Source of the DNA: Candidatus Wallbacteria bacterium
Lineage (GTDB): Bacteria; Muiribacteriota; JAQTZZ01
Length of the DNA: 64,000 bases
Direction of reading: 5' to 3'
NCBI GenBank assembly: GCA_028687545.1
Contig: JAQTZZ010000011.1
Coordinates: 1-64,000, forward strand
A program made the position numbers and the translations under genes. Positions 5,944 through 21,004 of the stretch are shown here, piece after piece (position 1 is the first letter of the stretch; every line of letters begins with the position of its first letter). The notes under the pieces are model-generated. The model was not told the origin of the DNA and made no database searches. It saw only the letters and a program-made list of their open reading frames with translations.

Positions 5944-5968
5944 TAAATTTGTTCCTTCGACGAATTTC
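5652..5968 (-). repeat. Direct repeat, copy A (5' part of the AlbA-type gene)
   Basis: About 315 bases covering the ribosome binding site, start codon and first ~97 codons of the AlbA_2 gene. The same stretch recurs at 7210-7526 in the same orientation at a constant offset of 1558 bases with scattered mismatches. The two copies flank the YhcG-family gene. Confidence 0.8.
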
Positions 5969-6033
5969 TCCCTGTTTTGAGATTCTCCACAAGCCTTGTG
6001 GAAAATCAACGGAACACGATTCGAATAAACATA

Positions 6034-7083
6034 TCACTCCGGTTGTCTGTTCTCTAATTGTGCTCTTGCAGCTGCAATGACCGCATGCAACTTCTTTTCC
6101 AGCTCTTTCTTTGGTGGAAGCTCTGTCAGGTACTCAGCGACCCTGATGCCTGCCCTGTTGAGTTGAAGAAGTTCAACCGTTTCCCTGGAACCTTCAGAAC
6201 AGAGAATCAGGCCCAGCGGGGTATCCTCGCCCTCAGTCATTGAATGTTTTTCTAGCCAGCGGAGATAGAGCTCCATCTGCCCCTTATAGGCAGCCTTGAA
6301 CTTACCCAGTTTCAGTTCAATTGCAACCAGTCGTTTAAGCTGCCTGTGGAAGAAGAGCAGATCCAGGCTGTGATCTTCGCCGTCGATTGTCATCCGCATC
6401 TGTCTGGACACAAACGCGAATCCTGACCCGAGTTCCAGAAGAAAATGCTCAAGTTCATGCAGAATGGCGGATTCCAGATCACTCTCGCTGAACGTGTCCT
6501 TCAGGTTCAGGAAATCAAGTACATAAGGGTCCCTGAAAACAAGATCAGGCGAAACTTTGCCTGTTTCCCGCAAGTCTGCCAGTTCCTTTTTAATCAATTC
6601 TTCAGGTTTTTTAGAGATTGCCGTGCGTTCAAAAAGCATTGAGTCAATTTTCTGCCGCAGAGTCCGCACGCTCCAACACTCGACGCGGCACATCTCTGCG
6701 TAGAACTCTCGTTTCAGATCATCTTCCATCGGAATCAAGAGCACGAAATGGCTCCAACTCAATTGTTTCGACAGTGTCGAAACAATTTGAAGATCAGCGA
6801 ACTGTTCTGAAAACCGCAGCATTCGGGACAGATTGGGTTTGGAGAAACCGTCTCCATAATCAATTTGCAGCTTCGCGCTCAGTGTCATTATGATCTGTTC
6901 GCCGTAAGCAGCCCGCTTACTGCATAGAATTTCATCCCGGATCCTTTTTCCGATCTTCCAGTATAGCATGGTCAGGGTGAAATTGACGGCACTGGCGACA
7001 GTTCCGCGGGCGTTTTCGATCAGGCTCCTGATGTCATTCACCAGAGCTTGGGGCATTATTGCTTTGATGCTTTTGTTTTTCAT
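6034..7083 (-). CDS. YhcG/DUF1016-family PDDEXK nuclease-domain protein
   Basis: A 349-residue protein with the two-part YhcG layout. The DUF1016 N-terminal domain shows NFTLTMLYWKIGKRI near 35, LSRMLRFSEQF and LSWSHFVLLI near 128. The C-terminal PD-(D/E)XK-like domain has HSLDLLFFHRQLKRLVAIEL followed by K-LGKF, so the D and E-x-K triad is present. The start is preceded by GGGAG five bases upstream. These proteins are common in defence islands and near type I restriction genes; their target is not established. The gene lies between two direct copies of the AlbA-gene 5' end, suggesting arrival or reshuffling by recombination. Confidence 0.85.
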   Translation of the reverse strand: MKNKSIKAIMPQALVNDIRSLIENARGTVASAVNFTLTMLYWKIGKRIRDEILCSKRAAYGEQIIMTLSAKLQIDYGDGFSKPNLSRMLRFSEQFADLQIVSTLSKQLSWSHFVLLIPMEDDLKREFYAEMCRVECWSVRTLRQKIDSMLFERTAISKKPEELIKKELADLRETGKVSPDLVFRDPYVLDFLNLKDTFSESDLESAILHELEHFLLELGSGFAFVSRQMRMTIDGEDHSLDLLFFHRQLKRLVAIELKLGKFKAAYKGQMELYLRWLEKHSMTEGEDTPLGLILCSEGSRETVELLQLNRAGIRVAEYLTELPPKKELEKKLHAVIAAARAQLENRQPE

Positions 7084-7135
7084 CTTGACTCCCTATTTTC
7101 TCACACATATCTCTGCAAGAATATTAAATCCAGGC

Positions 7136-7501
7136 TTACTCGTGGCAAGGTTCTTGACTTTGTGACTGTAACTTTGTCAAATGTATAGCCCCGGTACTGT
7201 TCCCCAGTGCAATCTTCCCATCAATTTCAACGATCTCGGGGGTGAGATGCAACGGAGGATTGAATTTCTGAGGATTGTTCAGGGCAGTGACAAGATCAGC
7301 AGCGATTTTCCTGCTGTGTTCGCTCGAAACGCCGATAACAGTGCCGTTATCTTTCACGCCAAGCAGCAAATGCCCGCCATTCCGATTGGCAAATGCGCAG
7401 ACAGTCTCATAAACATCCCTGCTGAGGGAGTTTTTGCATTCCTTGAACTCAACCTGCAAGCCCTCTCCCTGCTTAATGATGTTGACGATTTTTGACTTCA
7501 T
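7136..7501 (-). pseudogene. Truncated duplicate of the AlbA_2-type gene
   Basis: The first ~97 codons are nearly identical to the gene at 4459-5943 (same start, same GAAGGA ribosome binding site, FKECKNSLSRDVYETVCAF and LLLGVKDNGTVIGV). After GKI the reading frame leaves the family and ends 24 codons later. The ATPase and winged-helix parts are missing. It could still be translated into a 121-residue AlbA_2-only protein, but a gene remnant is the simpler reading. Its 3' junction lies just upstream of the YhcG-family gene. Confidence 0.75.
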
Positions 7502-7526
7502 TGTAATTGTTCCTTCGCCGGATTTT
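7210..7526 (-). repeat. Direct repeat, copy B
   Basis: Second copy of the 5652-5968 sequence, including the upstream ribosome binding site. Similarity ends abruptly inside the coding region near 7210 and fades upstream of the start codon near 7526. Confidence 0.8.
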
Positions 7527-7809
7527 CCCTTACCCTGTGGGTTTAATCTTCTGATCTTGGATTCCTGTTTCTTCTCCCATCCCGTGTCTCTAATTGCTAT
7601 ATCCTCTCAATCAATGCTCATCCGCTCTCTGATCATTACATCCCGCTACATACACATGCCATTGCAATGCAACCAAATAACATCATTCCGCTACACCCTG
7701 TTACATACGCATTCACATTTCTCCCAACTCACTTATCTGAGCTGCAATTATCAACATGTACCCCTTAGAACATACCTGCAGAAGAAAATCCGCGATTCTG
7801 TTCTGCTCA
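7527..7809. other. Intergenic stretch without a recognised gene
   Basis: Between the truncated AlbA gene and darG. No ORF with family features or good start is seen. On the minus strand two related words, GTGTAGCGGAATG and ATGTAGCGGGATG, recur about 40 bases apart. They could be regulatory, but nothing else supports this. Confidence 0.4.
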
Positions 7810-8862
7810 TTACATTGCCTTCAGCATAAACTGCTCCGGCACAGACACAGTCATGAGTTCTGCTGTCAAGATGCCTTTGTCTGCTAATACATTGATTGCC
7901 GCTTCCACATCCTGCCTGGAAAATTTTCCGGCTTTTTCCGGGGACCATTTCTGCAGGGAATCAAAAATCTCTTTGGCTGATGCCGACTTGGATTTGTTGA
8001 CCAGATAGCAAATGCTGGAATAGAGTTCCAGATCGTGCTCAGCAGTTAACGAGTCCACTAAATCTGCGGCCTTTACGATAAAAGGTTCAAAGAATTCCAT
8101 TTTTCCATGCGTCTGGTTGCTGATCAGAGTGGCTTTAAGATTCTTGGCCGCTTCAGATGACTTGATTTTGTAATATTCCTGGTATTCCTTGATCTGCTTG
8201 GCAAGAATCTCAATGGAATGGGCATAAGGACCGTACAAATAACCGTCAAATTTGAAAAAGTCCTGCTTAGAAAAGTAATTCATGAAAAAAGCGGCTTTCT
8301 GAAGCCTGGTTTTATTGAACTTCTTGAGTCTTGACTTGATCAGGATCAGGAAATAATGGGAAATTGTCAGCTTCGGTGCTTCAGAAACAGTATCTTTTCC
8401 ATTCATAAAGCTTTCCGTCAAAAAAGGTTCATAAACAACAAAATCCACTTCTTCCAAAAGCGGTTTGATATGTTTTGAGACTATCTTCAAAACATCATTC
8501 CAATTTAAGCCGCCATTGCCGCAACCGAGCGGCGGAATGGCGATGGACTTGATTCCCAGTTCCCGGATCAGCTTGATGAGTTCAGCCATACCTTTTTCAA
8601 TATATTCGAGCCTGGAATCTTCTCTCCATTTATCTTTAGTGGGAAAATTGATGATCCATTGCCCGTTTTCTTTGAAATAATGCAATTTACCGATGGCAAG
8701 AGCTTTGCTTTTGCAGGCCTTCTGATAATCAGCATTGTTTTCAGGGAATTTACACTTGAATTTATAGGCAATTCCCTTGCCCATATAGCCTTCGCAATTG
8801 ACAGTATTGACAAGAGCTTCAGCCTTTTCCAGGAGAATATCGCCTTGTTTATAAATAATCAT
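7810..8862 (-). CDS. darG: DarG-type macrodomain antitoxin (DNA ADP-ribosyl glycohydrolase)
   Basis: A 350-residue protein whose first ~150 residues are a macro domain (VNTVNCEGYMGKGIAYKFK, IPPLGCGNGGLNW) of the DarG type, which removes ADP-ribose that DarT places on thymidine in DNA. The C-terminal part from about 165 (ISHYFLILIKSR, TRLQKAAFFMNYF, DGYLYGPYAHSIE) matches the second DarG domain, known in the family to bind and block DarT. The gene overlaps the toxin gene upstream by ATGA, the usual coupling. The order toxin then antitoxin is as in known darTG operons. It acts in the cytoplasm on self DNA. Confidence 0.9.
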   Translation of the reverse strand: MIIYKQGDILLEKAEALVNTVNCEGYMGKGIAYKFKCKFPENNADYQKACKSKALAIGKLHYFKENGQWIINFPTKDKWREDSRLEYIEKGMAELIKLIRELGIKSIAIPPLGCGNGGLNWNDVLKIVSKHIKPLLEEVDFVVYEPFLTESFMNGKDTVSEAPKLTISHYFLILIKSRLKKFNKTRLQKAAFFMNYFSKQDFFKFDGYLYGPYAHSIEILAKQIKEYQEYYKIKSSEAAKNLKATLISNQTHGKMEFFEPFIVKAADLVDSLTAEHDLELYSSICYLVNKSKSASAKEIFDSLQKWSPEKAGKFSRQDVEAAINVLADKGILTAELMTVSVPEQFMLKAM

Positions 8863-9476
8863 TGTTCACCCGTCCTCACAAACATCTCCGATAACACATC
8901 GATTTTCGGTGAGTACAGATTCTTGGAGTTTAAATACTTGACAATTTTCTTCATGGTTTCAGGTGTTCTGACATAGATGCAAAAAAAATCGCGGATTGTT
9001 ATTACGCCTGGCGATAAGCATTCAGCCATGCAGACTTGTTTGCAATGTTCAGCGCGATAATCCCGTGTTTCCATGGCGTCCCAATCAATCTGCTCCATAC
9101 CTTCAGCATAATCCAGTATTTCAGGTTCATCAAAAAATTGCCCTGATAGCGGGTGTTTGACAAGGATTTTGAAACCATTCTTTTTTGCATGTCCTCTGCG
9201 GATAGTGATCAGAATGAATTCCGTATCAGGATGAGCTTTGATGACAGCACCCTGAAAAGGATTTTTTGCGAAAAAATGAAAGGGCAGGAAATCATCAAGT
9301 TTGTAAGCTGTCCTTTTCTGAATTATCTCCTGATCTGCAATATCACAATACTTCAAACCAAGCCTGATAACTTCAGATCGAGGCAACAAGCCATGTTCAG
9401 CAATTGCAGGCAGATTTTTCAATGCCGTGAGATGATAGAGCAGCTTCTGATTTCTGATTTTCGTTTTTTCTGTCAT
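8859..9476 (-). CDS. darT: DarT-type DNA ADP-ribosyltransferase toxin
   Basis: A 205-residue DUF4433/DarT protein, which uses NAD+ to ADP-ribosylate thymidine in single-stranded DNA and blocks replication. Seen: YHLTALKNLPAIAEHGLL at 14-31 (the NAD-binding H of the family is His15), FHFFAKNPF near 66, and MAECLSPG at 150-157, where Glu152 matches the catalytic glutamate of the family. Length is typical. It precedes darG with a four-base overlap. Solo and paired darTG systems also act against phage, and its place in a run of defence genes fits this. Catalytic residues look intact, so the toxin is probably active. Confidence 0.9.
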   Translation of the reverse strand: MTEKTKIRNQKLLYHLTALKNLPAIAEHGLLPRSEVIRLGLKYCDIADQEIIQKRTAYKLDDFLPFHFFAKNPFQGAVIKAHPDTEFILITIRRGHAKKNGFKILVKHPLSGQFFDEPEILDYAEGMEQIDWDAMETRDYRAEHCKQVCMAECLSPGVITIRDFFCIYVRTPETMKKIVKYLNSKNLYSPKIDVLSEMFVRTGEQ

Positions 9477-9570
9477 ATCATGCCTCTTATTATCCTACTT
9501 AATAAAAACTAACTCTTTTCCTTCCAATACACTGGGCCACTGGTCTTTCGAATCATCCTCTCAGGATTTA

Positions 9571-9579
9571 TGGTATAAT
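9571..9579 (+). promoter_or_regulatory. Extended -10 promoter of a small RNA candidate
   Basis: TGGTATAAT is a perfect TATAAT (9574-9579) with the TGn extension. Seven bases downstream is G9586, the first base of the outer stem of the RNA candidate, exactly where a transcript would start. No clear -35 box is seen; extended -10 promoters can do without one. Confidence 0.55.
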
Positions 9580-9585
9580 TAAATT

Positions 9586-9655
9586 GTCGTGAGCTAAACT
9601 CGGCCCCGTGCCGTGAGAACTTTCGGGTTCCTATACTCACGACCTTTTCTTTTTC
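9586..9655 (+). ncRNA. Candidate structured small RNA with three-way junction
   Basis: An eight-base outer stem pairs GTCGTGAG (9586-9593) with CTCACGAC (9636-9643). Inside it lie a hairpin CTC-GGC/GCC-GAG with a two-base bulge (599-617 of this kilobase) and a second hairpin AACT-TTCG-GGTT (9618-9629) with a TTCG tetraloop. A pyrimidine-rich tail, CTTTTCTTTTTC, follows directly, as in intrinsic terminators. The promoter above starts at the first stem base. No ORF explains this conservation of structure. I do not recognise the family. It lies between the darT start and the end of the restriction operon, on the opposite strand to both. Confidence 0.5.
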
Positions 9656-9740
9656 AGTTTGATCTGATTTCAAAGGAAACTCTTCAGATCATTATTCCCT
9701 GACATTACTCCCCTCCTTTTATCAACACTTTACATCCAAA

Positions 9741-10538
9741 CTATCCCATGTATTTCGTTCTTAAAGCATTTTCAATGTCTTTCTCCTCAATATCATCAAG
9801 GAACTCTTCAAAGTGAGTAAAATCAACAACATCAATGATAAAATACTCTTTCGAAAAACATTCGTTATCTTTAAAAGCATAATTCACTTCGAATTGAAAG
9901 AATCGTTCGATTTTTTCAGGTTCATTATCTTCACTTGGAGCAAATTGAAACATCGAGTTAAAGTTTTTACAGACAATCAAAGGATACTGGAGAGTATGCA
10001 AAATTGGATAATGCTCTTTTTCTTTTTCAAAAATAGCTTTTCCTTGTCTTTGGATGCTCCTGAAAAAAATCAAAGAATTAATGCATTGAGTGATTGCAGT
10101 GAAAAAAGGTTCTCTTTCAGATCCATCTGGCTTTTCCCCTGAAAACAGTTTCCCTACAGAGCAATCTGAAAGATAATGATGTTTTGAATAGTAGGTATTT
10201 CTATCTGGGGCTTTTATTCCTGCTACATGCTCAACTAGCTTAATGGCATTAACATGGTCTTTTACATCAGTCCAGAACACGAGGTTTTTATCGATATACT
10301 TACATTCAATAATCAACCTTAAATTGACAATTCCCTTTACTTCTTTATACCTATTGAGCATTTTAAATGATTTTTCAGCGATTATATCAACTTCCCGTGG
10401 TTTTTCTGAATAGCAATCGAGATAGTAGGGGCTGACTAAGACTTTCCATTCTTTTTCTCTAAGAAATTTCATTACCTGAAAATGAAAAGAGTTCCCGCTT
10501 TTTTCTATAATTTCTTTCAGGTTTTCCTTGGTTTTCAT
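9741..10538 (-). CDS. Putative PD-(D/E)XK nuclease at the end of the restriction operon
   Basis: A 265-residue protein I cannot name. Its first 80 residues fit a restriction-type PD-(D/E)XK fold: GNSFHFQVMKFLREKEW (15-31), REVDII with Asp51, and LIIECKY with Glu78 and Lys80. The rest has no motif I know. The start is three bases after the stop of the 65-residue gene, so it is the last gene of the hsd operon. Base composition is A+T-rich (16 G+C in the 60 bases from 9841), unlike hsdM or hsdR. A nuclease effector in the restriction locus is inferred; it could also be an inactive nuclease-fold protein. Confidence 0.55.
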   Translation of the reverse strand: MKTKENLKEIIEKSGNSFHFQVMKFLREKEWKVLVSPYYLDCYSEKPREVDIIAEKSFKMLNRYKEVKGIVNLRLIIECKYIDKNLVFWTDVKDHVNAIKLVEHVAGIKAPDRNTYYSKHHYLSDCSVGKLFSGEKPDGSEREPFFTAITQCINSLIFFRSIQRQGKAIFEKEKEHYPILHTLQYPLIVCKNFNSMFQFAPSEDNEPEKIERFFQFEVNYAFKDNECFSKEYFIIDVVDFTHFEEFLDDIEEKDIENALRTKYMG

Positions 10539-10541
10539 GGG

Positions 10542-10739
10542 TTAAATAAACTTTTCAATTTTATCCAATGCTTCTTTTTCTGTTTCCGCTACAAGTACAA
10601 TCGATACACGACAGTCCAAGTATTTTGAATCACTACGATCAGATTGAGCTTCATCACTTGTGTCAAAAGGCCCGCGAACCACAATATTCCCTAGTGGATT
10701 GATCGCCTGGAATCCATACCAATACTTTGCTTTACCCAT
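10542..10739 (-). CDS. Small 65-residue protein downstream of hsdR, function unknown
   Basis: I chose ATG 10739 over a longer frame because GAGGA lies just upstream and the start overlaps the hsdR stop by eight bases, a usual coupling. The product (MGKAKYWYGFQAINPLGNIV at the N terminus) is predicted mostly beta, with a final helix rich in Glu and Lys (EKEALDKIEKF). No family is recognised. Its stop is three bases before the next start, so it lies firmly inside the operon between HsdR and a putative nuclease. A small partner or inhibitor of the nuclease is possible but unproven. Confidence 0.6.
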   Translation of the reverse strand: MGKAKYWYGFQAINPLGNIVVRGPFDTSDEAQSDRSDSKYLDCRVSIVLVAETEKEALDKIEKFI

Positions 10740-13700
10740 TACTTCCTCGCTTTTCAAGATCCATATTTTTCAACGAAGCAGAATCTTTTCTGATCTTTTT
10801 ATAAGCTTCATTTGCGAGCAGACTGGTTATTGTTTTCTGAAAAGTCATATCATTCATGAACCGTGCAAAGATCTCTTCGTTTTGGTCCATGCGCTCAACA
10901 AACAGGGCTTCAAGCAGCGTCTTGAAAACCAGCTCAAACTTATCGCTTGGATTAACTGCTGCTGCTTGCTTTAGTTTCTCGTCTGATACTGCGGTTTCAA
11001 TGATTTGATCAAAAAACAACTGATCTGCCTGGTTGAAATCAGTGCCAAATCTTTCATTAATAATATCAACAAGTACTGCTAAAGCTACTGTTTCTTCATG
11101 GACTGAGCCGCTGCCTACTTCGGTGGGGCCGTAAAGAGGTTTGCCGGAACCTTCCTTCAAGCTGATTGAACCTTCGCTGATCTTCTGTAAACGGTAATAT
11201 TCTAGTTTCACATCATCATCGAAATTATAATTCGGTCCTCTCCTACGTTTTGGGAGTTTCGTAGCGAGGTGGCGGAGGAAAACATAAAGCTTTTCAAGAT
11301 CAGAATCCTGATAGGGTATTACTTGACTTAAAAAACTATACAGGTTTCGAAATGCCAGCAAATTGCCTCGCCAAAGTTCCGCTTCATCTTCATTCTTCTT
11401 CTGTAAGCAGGAAAATCTTGAGACTGCAGGATCAAGCGCGGCATTTAACAACTTGTGATCAGCGGGACTCTGTTTCTGCTTAGGCTTGAAGTAAATCTCG
11501 CAAAATCTCAGCACTTCTTCATTCAAAAAAATACCGGATGACTCAAGCTCGGTTTTGATTTTATACATTTGCGCTGGATCAACTTGTTCTCCCATCTCAG
11601 AGCCTTCATAATAAGCCTTGAAAGCTTCACGGATTTCATCCCTGTCATTCATAAAATCAAGCACAAAAACGTCTTCTTTTAGAGGATGGATTCTGTTCAG
11701 ACGGGAAAGAGTTTGCACAGCTTGAATACCGGCAAGCCTTTTGTCAACGTACATCGTATGCAGCAGCGGCTGGTCAAACCCTGTTTGGTATTTTTCGGCT
11801 ACTAGGAGCACCTGATACTCTGAAGATGCGAATTTATCAGGCAGTTCTTTTTCACCGAGTCCGTTATTCATACCGACTTCAGTATAAGTCACTTTGGAAA
11901 TTTTATCGTCAATGACTGTGCCTGAAAACGCTACCAATGTCTTTATAGAGTAGCCTTTCTTCTTGATGTATTTATCAAAGCTCAATTTGTAGCGCACTGC
12001 TTCAAGACGTGATCCTGTCACTACCATTGCTTTGGCATGGCCACCGATTTTATGCCTTGTTGATGCTTGGAAGTGTTCAATCATCACTTCGGTTTTCTGG
12101 GAAATATTATGGGGGTGCAATTTAAAGAATCTGGCTAAAGCTTTCGCACCCTTTTTTCTCTCAACATTCGGGTCACCCTGGCATGATTTTAGTAGTTTGT
12201 AATATGTTTTGTACGTTGTGTAATACTTAAGAACATCAAGAATGAACTTTTCTTCGATTGCCTGCCGCATGGTGTAGCGATGAAAGGGTTCTCCGCCACG
12301 TCCGAAAACCGCAAGCGTCTTATGCTTTGGTGTCGCAGTAAAGGCAAAAAAGCTCAAGTTTGCCTGCCTTCCCCTCTTTGCCATGCTCCGGTAAAGTTCC
12401 TCCATATTCGAATTTCCTTCTTCAATTGCCTGCAATTTAGCCTTTTTTAACAGGTCCTCACCACCAAGCACTTCTTTCAGATCAGTAGCAGTTTCGCCTC
12501 CCTGCGAACTGTGAGCTTCATCGACGATCACTGCGCATCGTCTTGTCGGTAAAGTCCCGGAACTGGAAGTTCCACGCTTTTCAGCCAATTTGAGCAACTG
12601 CTTGGAAACGAAAGGAAATTTTTGTAAAGTGGTAATGATGATGGGTACTGCAGATTCAAGAGCTTCCGCAAGCTGTTGAGAGCTTTCTTCAATCCTCTGC
12701 ACTACACCTCGCTTGTGTTCGAACTGGTAAATTGCATCCTGCAATTGCTGATCAAGCACTATCCTGTCCGTGACAACGATCACGGAATCAAAAACGCGTT
12801 TATCTCCCGCATCATGCAGTGAAGCGAGTCTGTGGGAAAGCCAGGCAATGGTATTGCTTTTTCCGCTGCCTGCGGAGTGCTCAATCAGATAATTATTTCC
12901 AACGCCTTCGCTGCGTGCTGTGTCAACAATGGTTCTTACTGCTTGAAGCTGGTGATAACGGGGAAAAATCATCGATTCTTTTTTTATCTTTTGCCCTTCG
13001 TCGGTGCGGATTTCTTCAACTTGAAGATGGAGAAACTTAGCCAGCATGTCGAGCAGACTGTCCCGTTGCAAAATTTCTTCCCACAAGTAAGCTGTCCGGT
13101 AATTACGGCCTTCAGGGTCACAAGGGTTTCCCGCTCCGCCGTCACAGCCTTTATTGAAAGGTAGGAAGCGGGTAGAAAGTCCTGTTAATCTTGTAGTCAT
13201 GTAAACTTCTTCCGTATCCACAGCAAAGTGGACAAGAGTGCGGCGTTTAAAATCGAAAATTGCATCACGCGGATCACGGTCTTTTCTATATTGCTGAATG
13301 GCATTGTCCACAGTCTGTCCTGTGAGAGGATTTTTCAATTCAACTGTGATGATTGGAATACCATTCAGGCTAATCACGACATCAATTGAGTTTTCAGATC
13401 GAGTTGAATAATGCAATTGCCGAGTGATACCGAGAATATTGGCATCATAGCCTTTTTCAAGCTCAGGATTCATTTCATGTGCAGCCTTAAAAAAAGCTAC
13501 ACGAAGGGTCTTACCGTAACATTTGAACCCATGTCTTAAAGTGGAAAGCGAGCCGTAAGTATCCATCCATTTGCACAAATCTCCAATGATCTGTTCGCTT
13601 GTTTGGTCTCCATGGAGTGCTTCTAACTTAGTCCACTCTTTAGGTTGTGTTTTGCGAATAAAATCGATGATTACATCAGGAAAAAGCGCTACTTCTTTGT

Positions 13701-13794
13701 TGAATGTGTCGGGTAAAATCTTATCAAACTTGTTTGACAGCAAACAAAGTTCAATGACAAATTCGAATGAGGCTTCTTTCAACGTTTGATTCAA
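10732..13794 (-). CDS. hsdR: Type I restriction enzyme R subunit HsdR
   Basis: The motor and nuclease subunit of a type I restriction-modification complex: it translocates unmodified DNA with ATP and cuts it far from the site. In 1020 residues: nuclease motif with Asp138 and VELKNP (Glu152, Lys154), QxxxY-like QYRKDRDP near 168, Walker A EHSAGSGKSN at 305-314, DEAH box VDEAHSSQGG at 424-433, FTATP near 490, and helicase motifs QTGFDQPLLHTMYVDK and QTLSRLNR. All key residues are present. It overlaps ptuB upstream by four bases. Base composition is close to hsdM (29 G+C in the 60 bases from 11221), unlike the genes between them. Confidence 0.96.
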   Translation of the reverse strand: MNQTLKEASFEFVIELCLLSNKFDKILPDTFNKEVALFPDVIIDFIRKTQPKEWTKLEALHGDQTSEQIIGDLCKWMDTYGSLSTLRHGFKCYGKTLRVAFFKAAHEMNPELEKGYDANILGITRQLHYSTRSENSIDVVISLNGIPIITVELKNPLTGQTVDNAIQQYRKDRDPRDAIFDFKRRTLVHFAVDTEEVYMTTRLTGLSTRFLPFNKGCDGGAGNPCDPEGRNYRTAYLWEEILQRDSLLDMLAKFLHLQVEEIRTDEGQKIKKESMIFPRYHQLQAVRTIVDTARSEGVGNNYLIEHSAGSGKSNTIAWLSHRLASLHDAGDKRVFDSVIVVTDRIVLDQQLQDAIYQFEHKRGVVQRIEESSQQLAEALESAVPIIITTLQKFPFVSKQLLKLAEKRGTSSSGTLPTRRCAVIVDEAHSSQGGETATDLKEVLGGEDLLKKAKLQAIEEGNSNMEELYRSMAKRGRQANLSFFAFTATPKHKTLAVFGRGGEPFHRYTMRQAIEEKFILDVLKYYTTYKTYYKLLKSCQGDPNVERKKGAKALARFFKLHPHNISQKTEVMIEHFQASTRHKIGGHAKAMVVTGSRLEAVRYKLSFDKYIKKKGYSIKTLVAFSGTVIDDKISKVTYTEVGMNNGLGEKELPDKFASSEYQVLLVAEKYQTGFDQPLLHTMYVDKRLAGIQAVQTLSRLNRIHPLKEDVFVLDFMNDRDEIREAFKAYYEGSEMGEQVDPAQMYKIKTELESSGIFLNEEVLRFCEIYFKPKQKQSPADHKLLNAALDPAVSRFSCLQKKNEDEAELWRGNLLAFRNLYSFLSQVIPYQDSDLEKLYVFLRHLATKLPKRRRGPNYNFDDDVKLEYYRLQKISEGSISLKEGSGKPLYGPTEVGSGSVHEETVALAVLVDIINERFGTDFNQADQLFFDQIIETAVSDEKLKQAAAVNPSDKFELVFKTLLEALFVERMDQNEEIFARFMNDMTFQKTITSLLANEAYKKIRKDSASLKNMDLEKRGSNG

Positions 13795-14489
13795 TGAATA
13801 CCTTTTTTACAGTATTTGCTCTTCTTTGCAAGTTTTTCCAGCTGTTTAGCATATTCAATTAAAGCCCATTTAATTGCTATGCAGAACTCCGTATAACTTC
13901 CATCAGGATTACGATCACAGATTGTTTTAATATAATGTTTAGTTTTAGATTTCGTTAGTTTAGTATTACCATTTATCCAATCATTAATAACCCCCATTCT
14001 ATCTTCTGCTAAGCTCTCGTGATTCAGCAGAAGTACACCTATTGTGACAACAGCTTTTCTCCCTATTGGAATAACGTGACCTTCAATATCAAACCTAAAA
14101 TATTTTTCACAGTTATTATCTAACGGCGATACAAAATCTGCTCCTCCATTTTTCCACCATTTACCCTTTGCTTGTGCACCATATCGATATTTAGACTTCA
14201 TCCCTTTATCGGGAAAACATGCAACCATATTTCGATAATTTAAATCTGAGCCCTTCGCTTCTTTGCGGCAAATACACTCAGGCTTGATATGTTCTATATG
14301 AGAATTGCTTAAATCTATTTTTTTCATTGTATATGCACACAACCAGCCCTGTTCTTCCAACAATTTTTTATGGAGATCATTTTTTTCTGGATTTCGGAGA
14401 CAACCATAATTTTCATTTAATGTGTTACGGACACTCTTGACCCAAGCGATGTAATTACCTGGTGGGCCTTTTTTTTGGATGTATTTCAT
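13791..14489 (-). CDS. ptuB: PtuB-like HNH endonuclease of a Septu-type defence pair
   Basis: A 232-residue protein with the PtuB layout: a Lys-rich start (IQKKGPPGNYIAWVKS), then EEQGWLCAYTMKKI around 45-58, the HNH core SHIEHIKPE at 63-71, and LNYRNMVACFPDKGMKSKY. In Septu and in retrons of the Ec78 type such a nuclease works with a PtuA ATPase to stop phage. The ATPase gene lies directly upstream with a 35-base overlap, and hsdR follows with a four-base overlap. One expected Cys of a CxxC pair is Thr (CAYT). Composition is A+T-rich. The family match is by motif, so the exact subtype is uncertain. Confidence 0.8.
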   Translation of the reverse strand: MKYIQKKGPPGNYIAWVKSVRNTLNENYGCLRNPEKNDLHKKLLEEQGWLCAYTMKKIDLSNSHIEHIKPECICRKEAKGSDLNYRNMVACFPDKGMKSKYRYGAQAKGKWWKNGGADFVSPLDNNCEKYFRFDIEGHVIPIGRKAVVTIGVLLLNHESLAEDRMGVINDWINGNTKLTKSKTKHYIKTICDRNPDGSYTEFCIAIKWALIEYAKQLEKLAKKSKYCKKGIH

Positions 14490-15732
14490 CTGCGTATTTC
14501 TCCATACGAGTCATTCGCGTCTCGAAAATCGCCCATTCGGGTAAATCTAATCCCATTTGTTGATAGATTTTAATTTTTTTCCTAGCTTTACTAAATTCTA
14601 CTTTATTAATTAATTTATCCACCATGTGAATGGCTTCAGAAGCAAGAAATGGTCTTTCCTCAGTATCAAAGATTTTGCGCAAAATCGAATTAGAATCTAA
14701 ACCATACGATCTTCCAGGTAATTTTGAAGATGGCGGCATAAGAATAACTTGCTCAGGTTTTACTTCAGAAATAACTTGTGGGGAGTGCGTAGTAGCAATA
14801 AATTGAATTTTTGGAAAAGTTTCAGTCAGCTGGTGAACTACTGTTCGTTGCCATTTGGGATGTAAGTGTAAGTCTATTTCATCAATTAATACAATACCTT
14901 TTCCATTTTTTAAAGGGTCCCTCATTGTCGGATTAGCCTGAGATAATCTTTTAGCAATTTCAAGAACCAATGCTAGCATACCCCGCTCTCCATCAGAAAG
15001 TTGAAGTACATTAAGCGTAGTACCCAGTTTATTAATAAACAAGCTTGGTTTAGGTTGTGATACAGCATGTAAATTAGAAAAACCAGGCATGAATCTTTCA
15101 GCAGCAATGCATAAGGATTTAACGTGCCTTTTAGCAGTAGGATCTTCTTTCCCTAACTTTTCTTGTGTTATCATCCACTGAGCAAAATCCCCGAGTTGCA
15201 AAAAACGATCATTAAATGCTTGATCAAATGCTCTTCCAGGACCTTTTGTAGTTTGTCTCGTGGTTAGAAAAAGTCCATGCATTGGTAAAGACCGTTTGAT
15301 AGAAAAAAATAGCCCAATAGGTTGTCGTGTTGAATTTTTCAAGCTCTCATATGTGTACGTTTTAGGTAAAGATGTTTCTTCAGTGCGATCGAATTCTCTC
15401 CCGCCGTGCACCTTTTTATTTCTTGATTTTTCCAAATCAATTCTATTTCTATATCTTACAAATTTTACATCTTCATTTTTAAAGTTAAAAACACATTTGA
15501 TCATGGACATAGAAGTGTTATTAGTATAATCACTCGTTCTGAGCATTGATAATTGTTCTTTTGCAGCAGTAAGTTTGGGATACATTTTTAGCATGCAAAA
15601 TCGGAGAGCGTCTAATACCGTCGTTTTCCCCACTCCGTTAATTCCGACGATTAAATTCATACCGGGTTCAAAGTTAAATTCTGCATGTTTAAAGGTCCTA
15701 AAATTTGTAATCTCCAAATGCTTGATCATCAT
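14455..15732 (-). CDS. ptuA: PtuA-like AAA/ABC-type ATPase of a Septu-type defence pair
   Basis: A 425-residue SMC/ABC-like ATPase of the OLD/PtuA class. Seen: FRTFKHAEFNFEPG, Walker A GINGVGKTT at 30-38, signature QLSDGERGM at 244-252, Walker B VLIDEIDLHLHPKWQ at 281-295, and the H-loop TTHSPQV at 314-320. There is no Toprim domain, which separates it from OLD nucleases, and an HNH partner follows at once. The start overlaps the end of hsdS by four bases. The A+T-rich base use (17 G+C in the 60 bases from 15481) contrasts with hsdM. Septu normally stands alone or with retron RNA; no reverse transcriptase is present here. Confidence 0.8.
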   Translation of the reverse strand: MMIKHLEITNFRTFKHAEFNFEPGMNLIVGINGVGKTTVLDALRFCMLKMYPKLTAAKEQLSMLRTSDYTNNTSMSMIKCVFNFKNEDVKFVRYRNRIDLEKSRNKKVHGGREFDRTEETSLPKTYTYESLKNSTRQPIGLFFSIKRSLPMHGLFLTTRQTTKGPGRAFDQAFNDRFLQLGDFAQWMITQEKLGKEDPTAKRHVKSLCIAAERFMPGFSNLHAVSQPKPSLFINKLGTTLNVLQLSDGERGMLALVLEIAKRLSQANPTMRDPLKNGKGIVLIDEIDLHLHPKWQRTVVHQLTETFPKIQFIATTHSPQVISEVKPEQVILMPPSSKLPGRSYGLDSNSILRKIFDTEERPFLASEAIHMVDKLINKVEFSKARKKIKIYQQMGLDLPEWAIFETRMTRMEKYADEIHPKKRPTR

Positions 15733-16985
15733 AAGCTACTTACCTCCTTACTACCCTTAACGACGGCATTGATTAAGGAAAGCCTTCTTTCATTCAAAAG
15801 CATCGTGGTTTGTTTCGTTAATCTATAGATACTATCAAGTTTTAGTAATTCTTTTTTAATGTAATCAACAATCACTGATTGTTCTGATATTGGAGGAACG
15901 GTTATAGGTAGAGATGAATATTTATTTGGATTTAAATTTGCTTGGCCAATTGATGGTAAAGCCTCAGATCGGGACCAAGATAATGAGTATGTAGAATTAA
16001 GAAAATAATTAACAAATTCAGGATTTACACCTTTTTTGCATCTAAGTCTTACAAGATAAGAGGATAATGAAACAGGGAAATCACCGAAACCTCTAAAGAT
16101 AGCAACCTTTCCAATTTGATCTAGACTATTCGTACGATTAAAAACCAAGTCCCCTGGATTTAGTAATAATGAAGAATCAACACTGTCAATGAAGCCAACA
16201 TTTTTAAAATCCAGCTCCATATTCTGAATATCACCCATTCTTAAAACAGCTACTTTGCCAACATCTCCAATAAGATCGGAAATACCATAATCGATGCGAT
16301 CAAGGATTCTTTTAAGTTTAGTAATTTTCCAGTGCTCAGGAATTTTCCCTATCCATTTCACTCCTGAATCTTTAAACTTTACTTCTCGGCTAATACCCCT
16401 CAAAACCGTTTGAGTAATAAGCGCACGACGTTTTTCTTCAAGTATGGCTAACAGTTTTTCTTTTGCAGTTATTAATTCATCGATTTTAGACGTTTCTTTA
16501 TCAAGGTAATCCGCAATGGAATTTTGTATAGAATACTCTGGTTTAGGAACTTGTAATGCTTTTATTTCATCAGTACTTAATTCTAAAAAAGTTGATCCTC
16601 GTCCTAATGACTGAAGCTTTTCCTTGTTTGCGAGAAGAAAGTAGTAATAAAAACGAGGATCAATAGACTTATTTGGAGTTAAAATAAAACATCCTTGATT
16701 TGAACAAGCATCAATATCAAGAATCGCAAGTTGTCCAATAGGTGCACGCTTGGTAAGAACAAGTGAACTTTTAGGTAAAACATTTACTCCACAATTATTA
16801 TAACCAGCAAGAGAAATTTTTCTCGAAGTGTTGGTAAGTAGATACCCTGTTTTAACATTGCTAATGTCTTCAGGTGTTACCCAAGGAATGTCACCATTCC
16901 AGTAGCTCTCATTGGCGCTAGCTGGTGTTGCTCCACTAGTAACAGATAAAACATATTTAAGAGGTAGATAAAAAAAGTCCCTCAA
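15729..16985 (-). CDS. hsdS: Type I restriction enzyme specificity subunit HsdS
   Basis: A 418-residue specificity subunit with two target recognition domains, each followed by a conserved helix. TRD1 begins with LKYVLSVTSGATP and ends with QNSIADYLDKETSKIDELI near 165; TRD2 begins with VKWIGKIPEHWKITKLKRIL near 210 and ends with EQSVIVDYIKKELLKLDSI. Each TRD reads half of a bipartite DNA site, which cannot be deduced here. It overlaps hsdM by four bases. Its A+T-rich composition matches ptuA and ptuB, as expected if this subunit and the Septu pair were exchanged together. Confidence 0.95.
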   Translation of the reverse strand: MRDFFYLPLKYVLSVTSGATPASANESYWNGDIPWVTPEDISNVKTGYLLTNTSRKISLAGYNNCGVNVLPKSSLVLTKRAPIGQLAILDIDACSNQGCFILTPNKSIDPRFYYYFLLANKEKLQSLGRGSTFLELSTDEIKALQVPKPEYSIQNSIADYLDKETSKIDELITAKEKLLAILEEKRRALITQTVLRGISREVKFKDSGVKWIGKIPEHWKITKLKRILDRIDYGISDLIGDVGKVAVLRMGDIQNMELDFKNVGFIDSVDSSLLLNPGDLVFNRTNSLDQIGKVAIFRGFGDFPVSLSSYLVRLRCKKGVNPEFVNYFLNSTYSLSWSRSEALPSIGQANLNPNKYSSLPITVPPISEQSVIVDYIKKELLKLDSIYRLTKQTTMLLNERRLSLINAVVKGSKEVSSL

Positions 16986-18973
16986 ACAGCAACCTCTTTA
17001 AGCAATCGCATGATTTCCTCTTCAGCTTTTTTTAGATCACCATTGATATCTTTCAACTCTCTTGGAGGAGTAAATGTATAAAAATACCTGTTGAAGTTGA
17101 TTTCATACCCGATTTTGTCTTTTTCACGATCCATCCATGCATCCGGAACATGAGGAAGTACTTCTCTTTTGAAGTATTCGTCGATATCTTCCTTGAGCTT
17201 GATGTTTTCAAAATCCCTGAGATCCGGGTCTGGCTCGTACTCACAATTTCCTTTTAACATCCGCACTTTCTGCGCTTCTGGGTCTTTCTGCGTAAATACA
17301 ATGCGGAAGAGTTTGAGTTCTGCAGATTTCCATTTTGAGCGGCGCTCATGCAGCAAATCGAGTATCTTTTCATTCATCTCGTTCCATTCGAGTTGAGGCT
17401 TGCGTCCGAAAGTCTTGTCTATAGCCTGAATGTCGTCTAGCAGATGCGGACAGGCATCCAGAAAACGGGCTTTATCTTCAAGTGTCATTTGATATCTCAG
17501 CCGTAATGGACGCTCTATAGTCACACGTGTATATCCGAAATCCGCATTATCAAAAATCTTCGATTTTTCAGATTCGACGAATTTGCTGTAGCAATTTACA
17601 ATTTCGTCTATCTGATTAGGTTCGTCATCAACGCCTTCCCCGATTTTTCTCCTCTTGTCACCCAGACTTCTCCGCATCGGTAAGAAAATCTCACGAGCAT
17701 CAATAAGCTGAATCTTCCCTTTACGGCGCTTTTCCTTTCGATTTGTGACAATCCAGATATAAGTGCCGATTCCAGTGTTATAAAACATTTGCTCTGGCAA
17801 GGCTATTATAGAATCAAGCCAATCATTCTCGATTATCCATTTTCTGATGTCACTCTCTCCTGAACCGGCTCCACCGGTAAACAGCGGCGAGCCGCTGAAC
17901 ACTATGCCCAGACGCGAACCATGTTTATGCTGTTTGGGAAGTACTGGTTCAAACTTGTTGATCATATGTTGCAGGAACAGCAAAGATCCATCATTCACTC
18001 TCGGCAGACCAGCGCCAAATCTGCCGCCATATCCAAGTTTGTCGTGCTCATTCATTATCTCTTTTTGCTGTTTTTTCCAGTCAACCCCGAAAGGCGGGTT
18101 TGTCAGGAAATAATCAAATTTTTCATCGTAAAACTTATCTTCAGTTAAAGAATCTCCAAAACGAATGTTTTCGCCGCTGCCATTGTGGTCAACCTGCTTC
18201 AAGAGCATGTCGGAGGCTGCTGTAGCAAAGGCTCTCTTGTTGTAATCCTGGCCATAAACATAAAGGAGAGCTTCAGATTGGTGTTCGCGCATATAATTTT
18301 GAGCCTCTGCCAGCATACCACCTGTACCGCATGCCGGGTCCAGCAGCTTGCGCACTGTTCCAGGGGTTGAAAGCAGATCGTCATCTTCATAAAACAGGAT
18401 GTTCACCATTAACCGGATAACTTCGCGTGGAGTAAAATGGTCTCCTGCAGTTTCATTGGCAAGTTCATTGAACCGGCGGATCAGGTTTTCAAAAATCGAG
18501 CCCATGTCCTCATTCAAGACCTTGTCTGGGTGAAGATCTACATCACAGAATTTGGAAATCACGAGGAAGAGTATATTGGACTCATGCATTCTTTCGATTT
18601 CTGCTTCAAACTCGAAAAATTCAAATATCTTACGCACATTGGCTGAAAAGCCTTTGATGTAACTGACCAAATGCTTGTCAATATGATCCGGGTCGCCTTT
18701 AAGTTTTGAAAATGTGAGTGAAGAACGGTTATGAAATCGCTGCCCAGCCGCTTTATTCAATATAACATCAAGGGCATCTTCGTTTAATTTGCCCCCTTGT
18801 CGGCGATTGTATTCAGCTAAAACTTTGTCTTTAGAATCTGCTAATACACAGTCAAAACGGCGTAGAACAGTCAATGGAAGCATAACTCTTTCATATTGAG
18901 GCGGTCGATACGGACCTCGCAATAAATCAGCTATCTGCCATATCAGATTCGCGTGTTCCTGGTGATTAGACAT
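16982..18973 (-). CDS. hsdM: Type I restriction enzyme methyltransferase subunit HsdM
   Basis: An N6-adenine methyltransferase of 663 residues that, with HsdS, protects host DNA. Seen: HsdM N-terminal helices (1-150), DHFTPREVIRLMVNI at 178-192, SAM-binding DPACGTGGM at 212-220, catalytic NPPF at 292-295 and a C-terminal region matching HsdS contact helices. It is longer than the common ~500-residue form, fitting the N6_Mtase family with an extended C terminus. It opens the seven-gene operon. Base composition is near 50% G+C in the one line counted (17221), unlike hsdS downstream. Confidence 0.96.
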   Translation of the reverse strand: MSNHQEHANLIWQIADLLRGPYRPPQYERVMLPLTVLRRFDCVLADSKDKVLAEYNRRQGGKLNEDALDVILNKAAGQRFHNRSSLTFSKLKGDPDHIDKHLVSYIKGFSANVRKIFEFFEFEAEIERMHESNILFLVISKFCDVDLHPDKVLNEDMGSIFENLIRRFNELANETAGDHFTPREVIRLMVNILFYEDDDLLSTPGTVRKLLDPACGTGGMLAEAQNYMREHQSEALLYVYGQDYNKRAFATAASDMLLKQVDHNGSGENIRFGDSLTEDKFYDEKFDYFLTNPPFGVDWKKQQKEIMNEHDKLGYGGRFGAGLPRVNDGSLLFLQHMINKFEPVLPKQHKHGSRLGIVFSGSPLFTGGAGSGESDIRKWIIENDWLDSIIALPEQMFYNTGIGTYIWIVTNRKEKRRKGKIQLIDAREIFLPMRRSLGDKRRKIGEGVDDEPNQIDEIVNCYSKFVESEKSKIFDNADFGYTRVTIERPLRLRYQMTLEDKARFLDACPHLLDDIQAIDKTFGRKPQLEWNEMNEKILDLLHERRSKWKSAELKLFRIVFTQKDPEAQKVRMLKGNCEYEPDPDLRDFENIKLKEDIDEYFKREVLPHVPDAWMDREKDKIGYEINFNRYFYTFTPPRELKDINGDLKKAEEEIMRLLKEVAV

Positions 18974-19023
18974 AAAATCTCCCGTTTTTACTCAGCTTCA
19001 TCTCCAGCTAAAATTTCCAATCT

Positions 19024-19128
19024 TCAGCTTTCATGAAGCTTTCCGGATAGCTCGTCCATACTAAAATTTGAGGGTTGATGGGTATGTTTGGTAAAGAATC
19101 TTCGGAGTTTACTCAACTTATCAGACAT
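19024..19128 (-). CDS. Possible 34-residue peptide upstream of hsdM
   Basis: A short frame, beginning MSDKLSKLRRFFTKHTHQ, has ATG at 19128 preceded by AAGGTGAG. It is very basic at the start. It lies in the hsdM leader and in the same direction, ending 51 bases before the hsdM start. It may be a leader peptide, a small regulator or a chance frame; no family is recognised. Confidence 0.35.
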   Translation of the reverse strand: MSDKLSKLRRFFTKHTHQPSNFSMDELSGKLHES

Positions 19129-19337
19129 TGCTCACCTTGAATTCATTTACTCGGATTAGGGTTGTAGCATGTGTTAATTAAAGACACGAAAAATCCGACA
19201 TTTTTTTTCTGATTTGAACATAGTTCAGGGTCCAGCTTTTTTACCATTATACCTTTGAAATTATTAAAACTCCATTAACACCCTATCCATTGATTCTCAT
19301 CTCGCCTGATCGAACAGCAGTGTGACCAGCTCAATTC
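19129..19337. other. Intergenic region upstream of the hsd operon
   Basis: A+T-rich gap between the radC end and the hsd operon leader. The hsd promoter should lie here on the minus strand, but I see no pair of boxes good enough to name. No other feature is visible. Confidence 0.4.
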
Positions 19338-19994
19338 TCATAACTTACCGTCAGCCAGAAAGCTGTAATGCCCTTTCTGATTGAAAATGATGTGATCCAG
19401 CAGCTTGATGCCAAGGATTTCACCGGCATCTTTCAGTTTGCGCGTCAGATCGATATCTTCCCTGCTTGGCGTCAAGCCGCCTGCAGGATGATTGTGTGCA
19501 ACTATGATAGAGCTGGCTCTATCAACAATCGGATCAGCAAATACTTCGCGGGGATGAACCAGGGTTTTATTCACAATTCCGATGGTTACAACCCTGACAG
19601 CAATCACTTCATTGGCACCATTGACTGAAATGCAGAGAAAATGCTCCTGCTTGCGGTCAGCGAAATTCGCAATCAGTGGCATAACATCTGTCGGGAATTT
19701 GATTTGCAGACCTTCAGGCTTGATCCTGCGGCGGGAGAATTCCAAAGCAGCTATGATGATTGAAGCCTTGGCCTGGCCGATCCCTTCAATTTCTGTAAGA
19801 TCTTTCAAGCGTAATTTGCCCTTTGTTGAGTCGAATTTCTTGAGTATCTCATCAGCCAGCTTGAAAACATCGTGCTTTTCAGTGCCGCTGCCCAGAAGTA
19901 TGGCGAGTAATTCCTTATCAGACAAGTACTCAGCGCCTTTAAGTGCCAGTTTTTCACGGGGAAAAGTGGATTTATCGCTGCCTTTTTTCATCAC
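19338..19994 (-). CDS. radC: RadC-family JAMM-domain protein
   Basis: A 218-residue RadC protein: helix-hairpin-helix part (LTEIEGIGQAKASII at 66-80) followed by the JAMM/MPN metal motif with His167, His169 and Asp180 in AHNHPAGGLTPSRED. Once called a DNA repair protein, its true role is unsettled; RadC genes are often found in mobile and defence islands, as here. It starts M-M; the second Met is equally possible. It is transcribed towards the hsd operon but separated by about 200 bases and divergent from the MerR-type gene. Confidence 0.92.
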   Translation of the reverse strand: MMKKGSDKSTFPREKLALKGAEYLSDKELLAILLGSGTEKHDVFKLADEILKKFDSTKGKLRLKDLTEIEGIGQAKASIIIAALEFSRRRIKPEGLQIKFPTDVMPLIANFADRKQEHFLCISVNGANEVIAVRVVTIGIVNKTLVHPREVFADPIVDRASSIIVAHNHPAGGLTPSREDIDLTRKLKDAGEILGIKLLDHIIFNQKGHYSFLADGKL

Positions 19995-20075
19995 CCACCA
20001 TGTCGTTTGTTATGCTGATATTTTACCTCAAATGACTGCAAATAAATAGTTCTGAAAAAATCCGAAAATATTTCT

Positions 20076-20106
20076 TGACCCTGACGTAACGTCATAGCTT
20101 ATGATT
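20076..20106 (+). promoter_or_regulatory. MerR-type promoter and operator of the TipA-like gene
   Basis: TTGACC (20076-20081) and TATGAT (20101-20106) are separated by 19 bases, the long spacer typical of promoters that MerR-family proteins activate by twisting DNA. The spacer holds the dyad TGACG-TAA-CGTCA (20083-20095). The regulator gene follows at 20246, so autoregulation is likely. Inferred from spacing, dyad and position. Confidence 0.75.
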
Positions 20107-20174
20107 TAATCAGGATGTAAGAGTCGTAACAGTTAAATTGGTAAATTGAGTTTGGCAAATTAAATCACAGGAAC

Positions 20175-20206
20175 GGATGGATTCCTGCTTACGCAGGAAT
20201 GACGGG
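20175..20206 (+). repeat. REP-like palindromic repeat, copy 2
   Basis: ATTCCTGC-TTAC-GCAGGAAT is a near-perfect palindrome with eight-base arms, flanked by GGATGG and GACGGG. The same element occurs at 4288-4309 (inverted) and 22388-22420. It lies in the leader of the TipA-like gene. Confidence 0.65.
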
Positions 20207-20245
20207 AAGAAATAACCTGACTGTTACAATCTCAAGGGAGGAGAT

Positions 20246-21004
20246 ATGGAAGGGTATACAGTGAACAGGCTGGCTGAGATGGCTGATGTGAGTGTGCGCA
20301 CGCTTCATCACTATGACCAGATCGGACTGTTAAAACCGGATACGCGAACCGAGGCCGGTTACAGGCTGTATGGAATGGCTAAGCTCTTGCGGCTGCAGCA
20401 GATCCTGTTTTACAGGGAACTGGGATTCGAATTGAAGGAAATCCGGAAAATACTTGATCATCCTGAATTCGAACCAGTCGGAGCCCTGGAAAATCACAGG
20501 GAACTTCTGGGGAAAAAGATCGCCAGGCTGAAAAAGCTCCTCGCTACAGTCGACAGTACCATCAAAGACCTGAAAGGAGAACGGAAAATGCTTAAAGATG
20601 AAGAATTATACGAAGGGTTTTCAAAAGAACAGATTGAGCGCTACAAAAAGGAAGTGCGTGAAAAGTACGATCCTGTGCTGGTGCAGGAATCAAAGCGCAG
20701 GATCGGGAAAATGTCTAAAGAGCAGTGGAATGCAGTCAAAACTGAAGGAGGCGAGATCGCCAGACTGCTGGGAAAGCTGCTGGGGCGCAAGTCGTCAGAC
20801 CCTGAAGTCCAGAAGCTGATAGCCCGCCATCACGCCTGGATCGAGAACTTCTATCCTGCGCCGGCTGAAGTCTATCGCGGGCTCGGGCAGCTGTACACAG
20901 ACAATCCGGAATTCAGGGCTTTCTATGAAAAGTACGGTAAAAACCTGGCGGATTTCATGAAAGAAGCGATTGAATATTACTGTGGACATGATCTGAAGAA
21001 GTAA
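20246..21004 (+). CDS. TipA-like MerR-family regulator with TipAS ligand domain
   Basis: A 252-residue protein with a MerR helix-turn-helix (VNRLAEMADVSVRTLHHYDQ at 5-24, then IGLLKPDTRTEAGYRLY), a coiled-coil dimer helix (75-115) and a TipAS-type domain from about 120 (KEVREKYDP, MSKEQWNAVKTEG, RHHAWIENFY, YTDNPEFRAFYEKYG). In TipA this domain binds thiopeptide antibiotics and switches on its own promoter. GGGAGGAG lies just before the ATG. The dyad with a 19-base spacer upstream fits self-activation. No resistance gene is next to it, so its inducer is unknown. Confidence 0.9.
   Translation: MEGYTVNRLAEMADVSVRTLHHYDQIGLLKPDTRTEAGYRLYGMAKLLRLQQILFYRELGFELKEIRKILDHPEFEPVGALENHRELLGKKIARLKKLLATVDSTIKDLKGERKMLKDEELYEGFSKEQIERYKKEVREKYDPVLVQESKRRIGKMSKEQWNAVKTEGGEIARLLGKLLGRKSSDPEVQKLIARHHAWIENFYPAPAEVYRGLGQLYTDNPEFRAFYEKYGKNLADFMKEAIEYYCGHDLKK

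Follow-up and report, generated by a model that had tools for sequence, protein, structure and literature searches.

PrrC, an anticodon nuclease and the standard example of a suicide nuclease kept by a restriction enzyme, is an ATPase-containing effector embedded in the type I restriction-modification (R-M) operon EcoprrI; it is silenced by EcoprrI and freed by the Stp protein of phage T4 (PMC3874165, PMC2610378). Because PrrC orthologues are “invariably linked” to type Ic R-M systems, by which PrrC is silenced, and RloC is only rarely linked (PMC2610378), tight linkage marks the restriction-controlled kind of effector. Septu, the pair of the PtuA ATPase and the PtuB HNH nuclease, is known as a stand-alone system (type I) and in type I-A retrons (type II; Eco7/Ec78, Ec83). 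Stand-alone Septu works without a partner, and EcB88 Septu cleaves tRNA-Tyr (PMC13096335). PtuAB of retron Eco7 is toxic, is neutralised by msrmsd together with the reverse transcriptase (RT), and depletes tRNA-Tyr, but given that Eco4 PtuAB leaves tRNA undepleted (PMC11555353), the target in the operon analysed here cannot be read off from Eco7.

Defence genes between hsdS and hsdR have also been published: two papers describe DarTG2 of EPEC (PMC12255303) and RloF of Campylobacter (PMC11411939) in this slot, and TgvAB of V. cholerae in the same or a similar one (PMC11411939), and present the site as a possible recombination hotspot. TgvAB still confers protection after cloning apart from the hsd genes (PMC11411939), so that, as the partnerless action of stand-alone Septu also indicates, embedding need not imply control. 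Septu itself has been placed inside another defence operon, Hma, by a mention in PMC12255303 and an association in PMC8565338; the host in that case is not a type I R-M system.

Here we analyse a type I R-M operon that encompasses a Septu pair, in a window of 64,000 nucleotides (the whole stretch of DNA examined) from Candidatus Wallbacteria bacterium. The operon follows the same embedding principle as DarTG2, RloF and TgvAB but with other effectors, and its PtuA belongs to an exclusive lineage, a feature not reported for those three systems in the text consulted. Like PrrC, this PtuA lineage is always R-M-linked: in 15 of 15 loci it follows hsdS within an operon of a single hsd family, and none was found outside, a modest sample that includes some metagenomic contigs. 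Unlike PrrC, a single protein with its own nuclease triad, the effector here consists of an ATPase and a separate HNH subunit, and in family searches the embedded proteins matched PtuA and PtuB rather than the PrrC family with its Arg-Glu-His triad. The reading we favour, with a probability of roughly 0.4, is a type I R-M operon in which a dedicated Septu pair forms the second line of defence and PtuAB would be latent under HsdMSR.

Gene content of the operon

Table 1. Genes of the operon, with window coordinates, and further loci of the same arrangement
Feature	Coordinates	Strand	Description	Evidence
hsdM	16982..18973	(-)	type I DNA methyltransferase subunit, 663 aa	PADLOC MTase_I, Pfam N6_Mtase + HsdM_N
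hsdS	15729..16985	(-)	specificity subunit, 418 aa	Pfam Methylase_S, PADLOC Specificity_I
ptuA	14455..15732	(-)	ABC/SMC-type ATPase of Septu, 425 aa	PADLOC PtuA, PDB and fold matches
ptuA 3' part	14455..14766	(-)	C-terminal helical bundle, ~residues 323-425	recombinants L177 and L280, predicted helices
ptuB	13791..14489	(-)	HNH nuclease of Septu, 232 aa	PADLOC PtuB, TIGR02646, PDB profile match
hsdR	10732..13794	(-)	restriction and translocation subunit, 1020 aa	Pfam HSDR_N, SWI2_SNF2; REase_I/HsdR profiles
L004			Septu-bearing hsd operon, Ketogulonicigenium plasmid	
L009			Septu-bearing hsd operon, Roseovarius marisflavi	
L176, L177, L188, L191, L280, L281, L282, L240, L187			Septu-bearing hsd operons, Pseudomonadota genomes	
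L048, L049, L311			Septu-bearing hsd operons, IMG/VR contigs	

The initial annotation read the gene order hsdM-hsdS-ptuA-ptuB-hsdR, with overlaps of 4 to 35 bases, and named the middle pair Septu-like. The order is borne out by the ORF coordinates and by reading of the junctions in the sequence (overlaps of 4 bases for hsdM/hsdS, 4 for hsdS/ptuA, 35 for ptuA/ptuB and 4 for ptuB/hsdR), and the identity of the pair held as well. The three genes of a type I R-M system are all present and intact: the hsdM, hsdS and hsdR frames are full-length, and the NPPF motif of HsdM and the Walker A and DEAH motifs of HsdR are visible in the translations. HsdM matches the PADLOC MTase_I profile with E 1.5e-261 (868 bits) and HsdS the Pfam Methylase_S profile with E 6e-32; the match of HsdR to the NCBIfam hsdR model, at E 1.7e-58, lies under that model's own cut-off. 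A scan for promoters and terminators returned 18 promoter-like sites vs 30 expected.

Both middle proteins display the sequence features of Septu, namely, a PtuA with the ATPase motifs and an adjoining PtuB HNH protein with the catalytic His and Asn. PtuA (E 2e-113 against the PADLOC PtuA profile) retains an intact Walker A (GINGVGKT), signature (LSDGE), Walker B (VLIDEID) and H-loop (TTHSPQ), the key residues of which are invariant in all 14 clade members discussed below. PtuB scores E 2e-54 against the PADLOC PtuB profile and 61.7 bits, over the model's cut-off, against NCBIfam TIGR02646, and had no Pfam match in the family search; its E66-H67 and N87 are invariant in all 13 aligned R-M-embedded PtuBs. 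In searches of the PDB, the profile of the R-M-embedded PtuA clade gave Ec83 PtuA as the best sequence match (E 7e-68) and also retrieved the E. coli Septu PtuA 8ee4 (E 3e-63), and the PtuB profile matched chain C of the Septu PtuB structure 8ee7 (E 4e-19). A fold search with the window PtuA as modelled by AlphaFold (mean pLDDT 75.8) yielded solely PtuA structures among the best 50 PDB matches listed. Together, the profile, PDB and fold searches support assignment of the middle pair to Septu.

With stand-alone type I Septu, the pair thus shares adjacent PtuA and PtuB genes, retained catalytic motifs, and the PDB and fold matches, but differs in its position between hsdS and hsdR and in a PtuA that falls into a separate clade without stand-alone members. 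Retron type I-A systems are similar in that their PtuAs form a dedicated clade coupled to a partner module, and their Ec83 PtuA is the closest PDB sequence; however, PtuA is about 550 aa long in the retron vs 425 aa here. Neither the family matches of the operon nor a search of the R-M-embedded loci with an RT profile revealed an RT; likewise, there was no Rfam match in window 7000-21000, although Rfam may not cover all retron RNAs. The reading of this operon as a retron was therefore rejected.

The operon is located in a defence island that, with RadC at 19338-19994, extends over ~4.4-20 kb. Downstream of hsdR, at 7810-9476 (-), lies a DarT-DarG toxin-antitoxin pair, outside the hsd operon, unlike EPEC DarTG2, which is inside. 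Between hsdR and darT, a 265-aa ORF (9741-10538, (-)) without a family match contains a stretch, VDII...LIIECKY, that by eye resembles a PD-(D/E)XK motif. A Schlafen AlbA_2/Fic-like-C protein and a YhcG-type PDDEXK nuclease are encoded at 4459-7083 (-).

The PtuA lineage of one hsd family

The hsdM-hsdS-ptuA-ptuB-hsdR arrangement was found in 14 further loci (Table 1), in one of which (L191) the contig ends before hsdR. Ten of the loci are the closest to the window (L004, L009, L048, L049, L176, L177, L188, L191, L280 and L281); their HsdM is 71-76% identical to that of the window and their PtuA 38-44%. Where compared, identity is 70-74% for HsdR (eight close Septu-bearing operons), 28-38% for PtuB and 27-34% for HsdS. 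L240 and L282 are more distant, with HsdM 56 and 60% identical to the window protein. Among 40 genomes of the window's phylum, no other has this HsdM at >57% identity, whereas Pseudomonadota reach 71-76%. In L187 (209-1884), the ptuB frame is cut short at ~40 codons and what comes next resembles an insertion-sequence transposase, so that PtuA is retained there without its nuclease. A conserved sixth gene 3' of hsdR was considered and rejected, the downstream ORFs being unrelated between most loci.

A maximum likelihood tree of 81 PtuAs groups the 14 that belong to operons of this hsd family into a single clade (support 100/96), which contains no stand-alone and no retron members; L311, found later and not included in the tree, agrees. 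The 16 retron PtuAs form a separate clade in the same tree (98/95), and the window PtuA is a deep branch within the R-M clade. Two looser cases of linkage fall elsewhere. One, L005 (1-16290), is an hsdM-hsdS-ptuA-ptuB-hsdR operon of another hsd family, behind Tn7-like transposition genes on an Enterobacter plasmid; in the other, L145, hsdS alone is visible beside PtuA at a contig end. The PtuAs of both nest among the stand-alone ones, away from the R-M clade, and a single origin of all 16 R-M-linked PtuAs, these two included, was rejected (p-AU 4e-151).

Searches with a profile of the clade gave a wide gap in scores: all loci with at least 527 bits are in hsd operons, and the next PtuA, at 348 bits, is stand-alone. 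L311, which had been left out of the profile, scores on the R-M side of this gap. A search of 385 genomes belonging to one class returned the same four, and no others, with the window HsdM (E 1e-190) as with the clade profile (>560 bits). Furthermore, PtuA distances correlate with those of HsdM (Mantel r 0.81) and HsdR (0.83); when the two most distant loci, L240 and L282, are removed, these values become 0.54 and 0.62, respectively. On account of the exclusive clade, the score gap, the co-occurrence and the correlated distances, this PtuA is a long-term partner of the enzyme family and diverges more quickly than the genes around it. That the relatives constitute a PtuA lineage not yet met outside such operons suggests, short of proof, that the restriction enzyme keeps the pair in check and releases it on virus attack, but the exclusivity of the clade could instead stem from common descent and tight linkage. 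A restriction-bound Septu lineage is not described in the literature searched, which does not prove that it is new.

The hsdS-hsdR slot, base composition and rival explanations

A Pseudomonadota sample contained 31 complete operons with an HsdM of the wider family (recognised by HsdM at E 1e-100 or better), and 20 of them carry at least one same-strand gene of at least 140 aa between hsdS and hsdR; five Septu operons collected beforehand are outside this count. The slot accommodates, apart from Septu, IetAS, FRG, KAP, GIY-YIG/DUF4357, GmrSD, Schlafen with Fic, Mrr, HNH, AbiEi/AbiEii and TIR genes. L106 (4666-6624) and L107 show the order hsdM-hsdS-hsdR with a 652-aa PtuA-like ATPase after hsdS and without PtuB. 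Being filled in about two thirds of the sampled operons, the slot is a place to seek further guarded effectors.

One locus appears to record an exchange. L188 (4566-8970) has Septu and IetAS stacked in the order hsdM-hsdS-ptuA-ptuB-ietA-ietS-hsdR, and L239 carries IetAS without Septu; HsdM and HsdR of L239 are 89% and 90% identical to those of L188, and the two IetAS proteins of L188 are 88 and 81% identical to their L239 counterparts. The interval between ptuB and ietA in L188 contains a remnant of the 3' end of hsdS (AVTGQIDVSN), and 85 bases spanning the hsdS-ietA junction are 80% identical to L239 (E 4e-14). In the simplest reading, an hsdS-ptuA-ptuB block entered an hsdS-ietAS operon. Of the 27 slots scanned, the 26 others contain no such hsdS tail, and an entry scar was not recognised in the window operon. 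The proposal that hsdS, ptuA and ptuB make up an exchangeable cassette is therefore upheld in part: the L188 remnant and the Septu-free L239 speak for it, but PtuA is not often swapped in this family, given its exclusive clade of 14 and the distances that track HsdM and HsdR.

The same holds for the reported drop in G+C content, which is real, falls on gene borders and includes ptuB too, but was overstated, with hsdM and hsdR put at 48-50% and hsdS and ptuA near 30%: the computed values are 43.0% for hsdM, 34.4% for hsdS, 35.8% for ptuA, 34.8% for ptuB and 42.7% for hsdR. At third codon positions (GC3), hsdM and hsdR have 41.9% vs 25.8% for hsdS, ptuA and ptuB (chi-square p 9e-18), with hsdS at 22%. 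Even hsdM and hsdR are GC-poorer than the window outside the defence island (47.9%). The sharp change at gene borders, together with the scar of such an event in L188, another genome, might indicate that hsdS-ptuA-ptuB is a fresh AT-rich cassette in a resident R-M operon, but this appears very unlikely. Among R-M-embedded loci, ptuA is below the mean of hsdM and hsdR in 13 of 13 and ptuB in 12 of 12, and hsdS is below both hsdM and hsdR in all eight cargo-free operons checked; low G+C is accordingly weak evidence of recent import, against which the deep position of the window PtuA inside the R-M clade and the lack of a recognised scar in the window operon also count.

A far stronger rival is that a self-sufficient Septu merely shares a promoter and joint transfer with the R-M genes, the two systems covering different phages without contact. 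Such independent co-localisation is nearly as likely as silencing by the type I enzyme: the slot is a general cargo site in the Pseudomonadota sample, TgvAB functions alone (PMC11411939), and the PtuAs of L005 and L145 nest among stand-alone ones, one origin being rejected; free passengers, however, would be expected outside hsd operons too, where this PtuA clade was never found. Cargo could also be kept through addiction to the R-M system. Since loss of the modification genes would kill via residual restriction, a gene lodged between the R-M genes would escape deletion and spread with the operon, with no direct molecular control. The highly varied cargo, flanked by modification genes on one side and restriction genes on the other and frequently overlapping the two, and the passage of whole operons across phyla, apparent from the HsdM identities, fit this scenario; nevertheless, we consider it improbable, because it leaves unexplained why one PtuA lineage is bound to one hsd family while other cargo varies.

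Possible control of PtuAB and exchange of its C-terminal module

Under the favoured reading, with PtuAB latent under the type I enzyme, the complex would stay inactive while HsdMSR binds or controls it, comparable to PrrC with EcoprrI and to retron PtuAB with RT-msDNA. As the silencer known from retrons seems to be missing from the R-M-bound clade, the type I enzyme would be the obvious candidate for this role. PtuAB would be freed by a phage protein able to block the enzyme or take it apart; the ATP switch of PtuA would then position PtuB, which might cut tRNA or DNA, and the infected cell would be arrested. The parallels with PrrC and retron PtuAB make it plausible that modification, restriction and an abortive response are coupled, as the initial annotation envisaged.

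More tentatively, this could be a third form of Septu besides the stand-alone and retron-bound ones, latent under a type I enzyme and released by phage anti-restriction proteins. The PrrC principle would then have been invented a second time, independently, with another nuclease and with a plug-in effector (the PtuA C-terminal bundle with PtuB) that changes while the sensor stays the same. Should a separate PtuA lineage be bound to another type I family in the manner of PrrC, restriction enzymes may be general guards of latent nucleases. An anti-restriction protein may then be a general trigger, and Septu, the trigger of which is not established in the literature searched, would gain a defined partner.

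The exchange of the C-terminal module is directly apparent in two recombinants. PtuA of L177 is 89% identical to that of L004 through the H-loop and only 29% beyond it, where it is 65-71% identical to PtuA of L009 and L048, and it is paired with a PtuB of the L009/L048 type. In L280 the situation is reversed, with the N-terminal part nearest L009 (72%) and the C-terminal part and PtuB nearest L176/L004. The breakpoint corresponds to ~residue 323 of the window PtuA, where the modelled ATPase core passes into a C-terminal helical bundle (helices predicted by AlphaFold at 347-417, preceded by a low-confidence linker). PtuB splits into two lineages that conflict with the PtuA tree, and the swap is thereby detected; the PtuA C-terminal bundle and PtuB are exchanged as one unit. 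Joint movement would follow if the bundle served as the socket for PtuB, a putative role that would leave the ATPase core as the part contacting the restriction enzyme.

Two other PtuA-PtuB arrangements were observed. The genome of the window encodes a second, stand-alone PtuA/PtuB pair (L197, G000:C58:16383-17618; 636-aa frame), with a PtuA 33% identical to the first. On a Phocaeicola plasmid, a 616-aa protein annotated as an HNH endonuclease (L007, 9001-10851) also contains a PtuA-like ATPase and looks like a natural PtuA-PtuB fusion.
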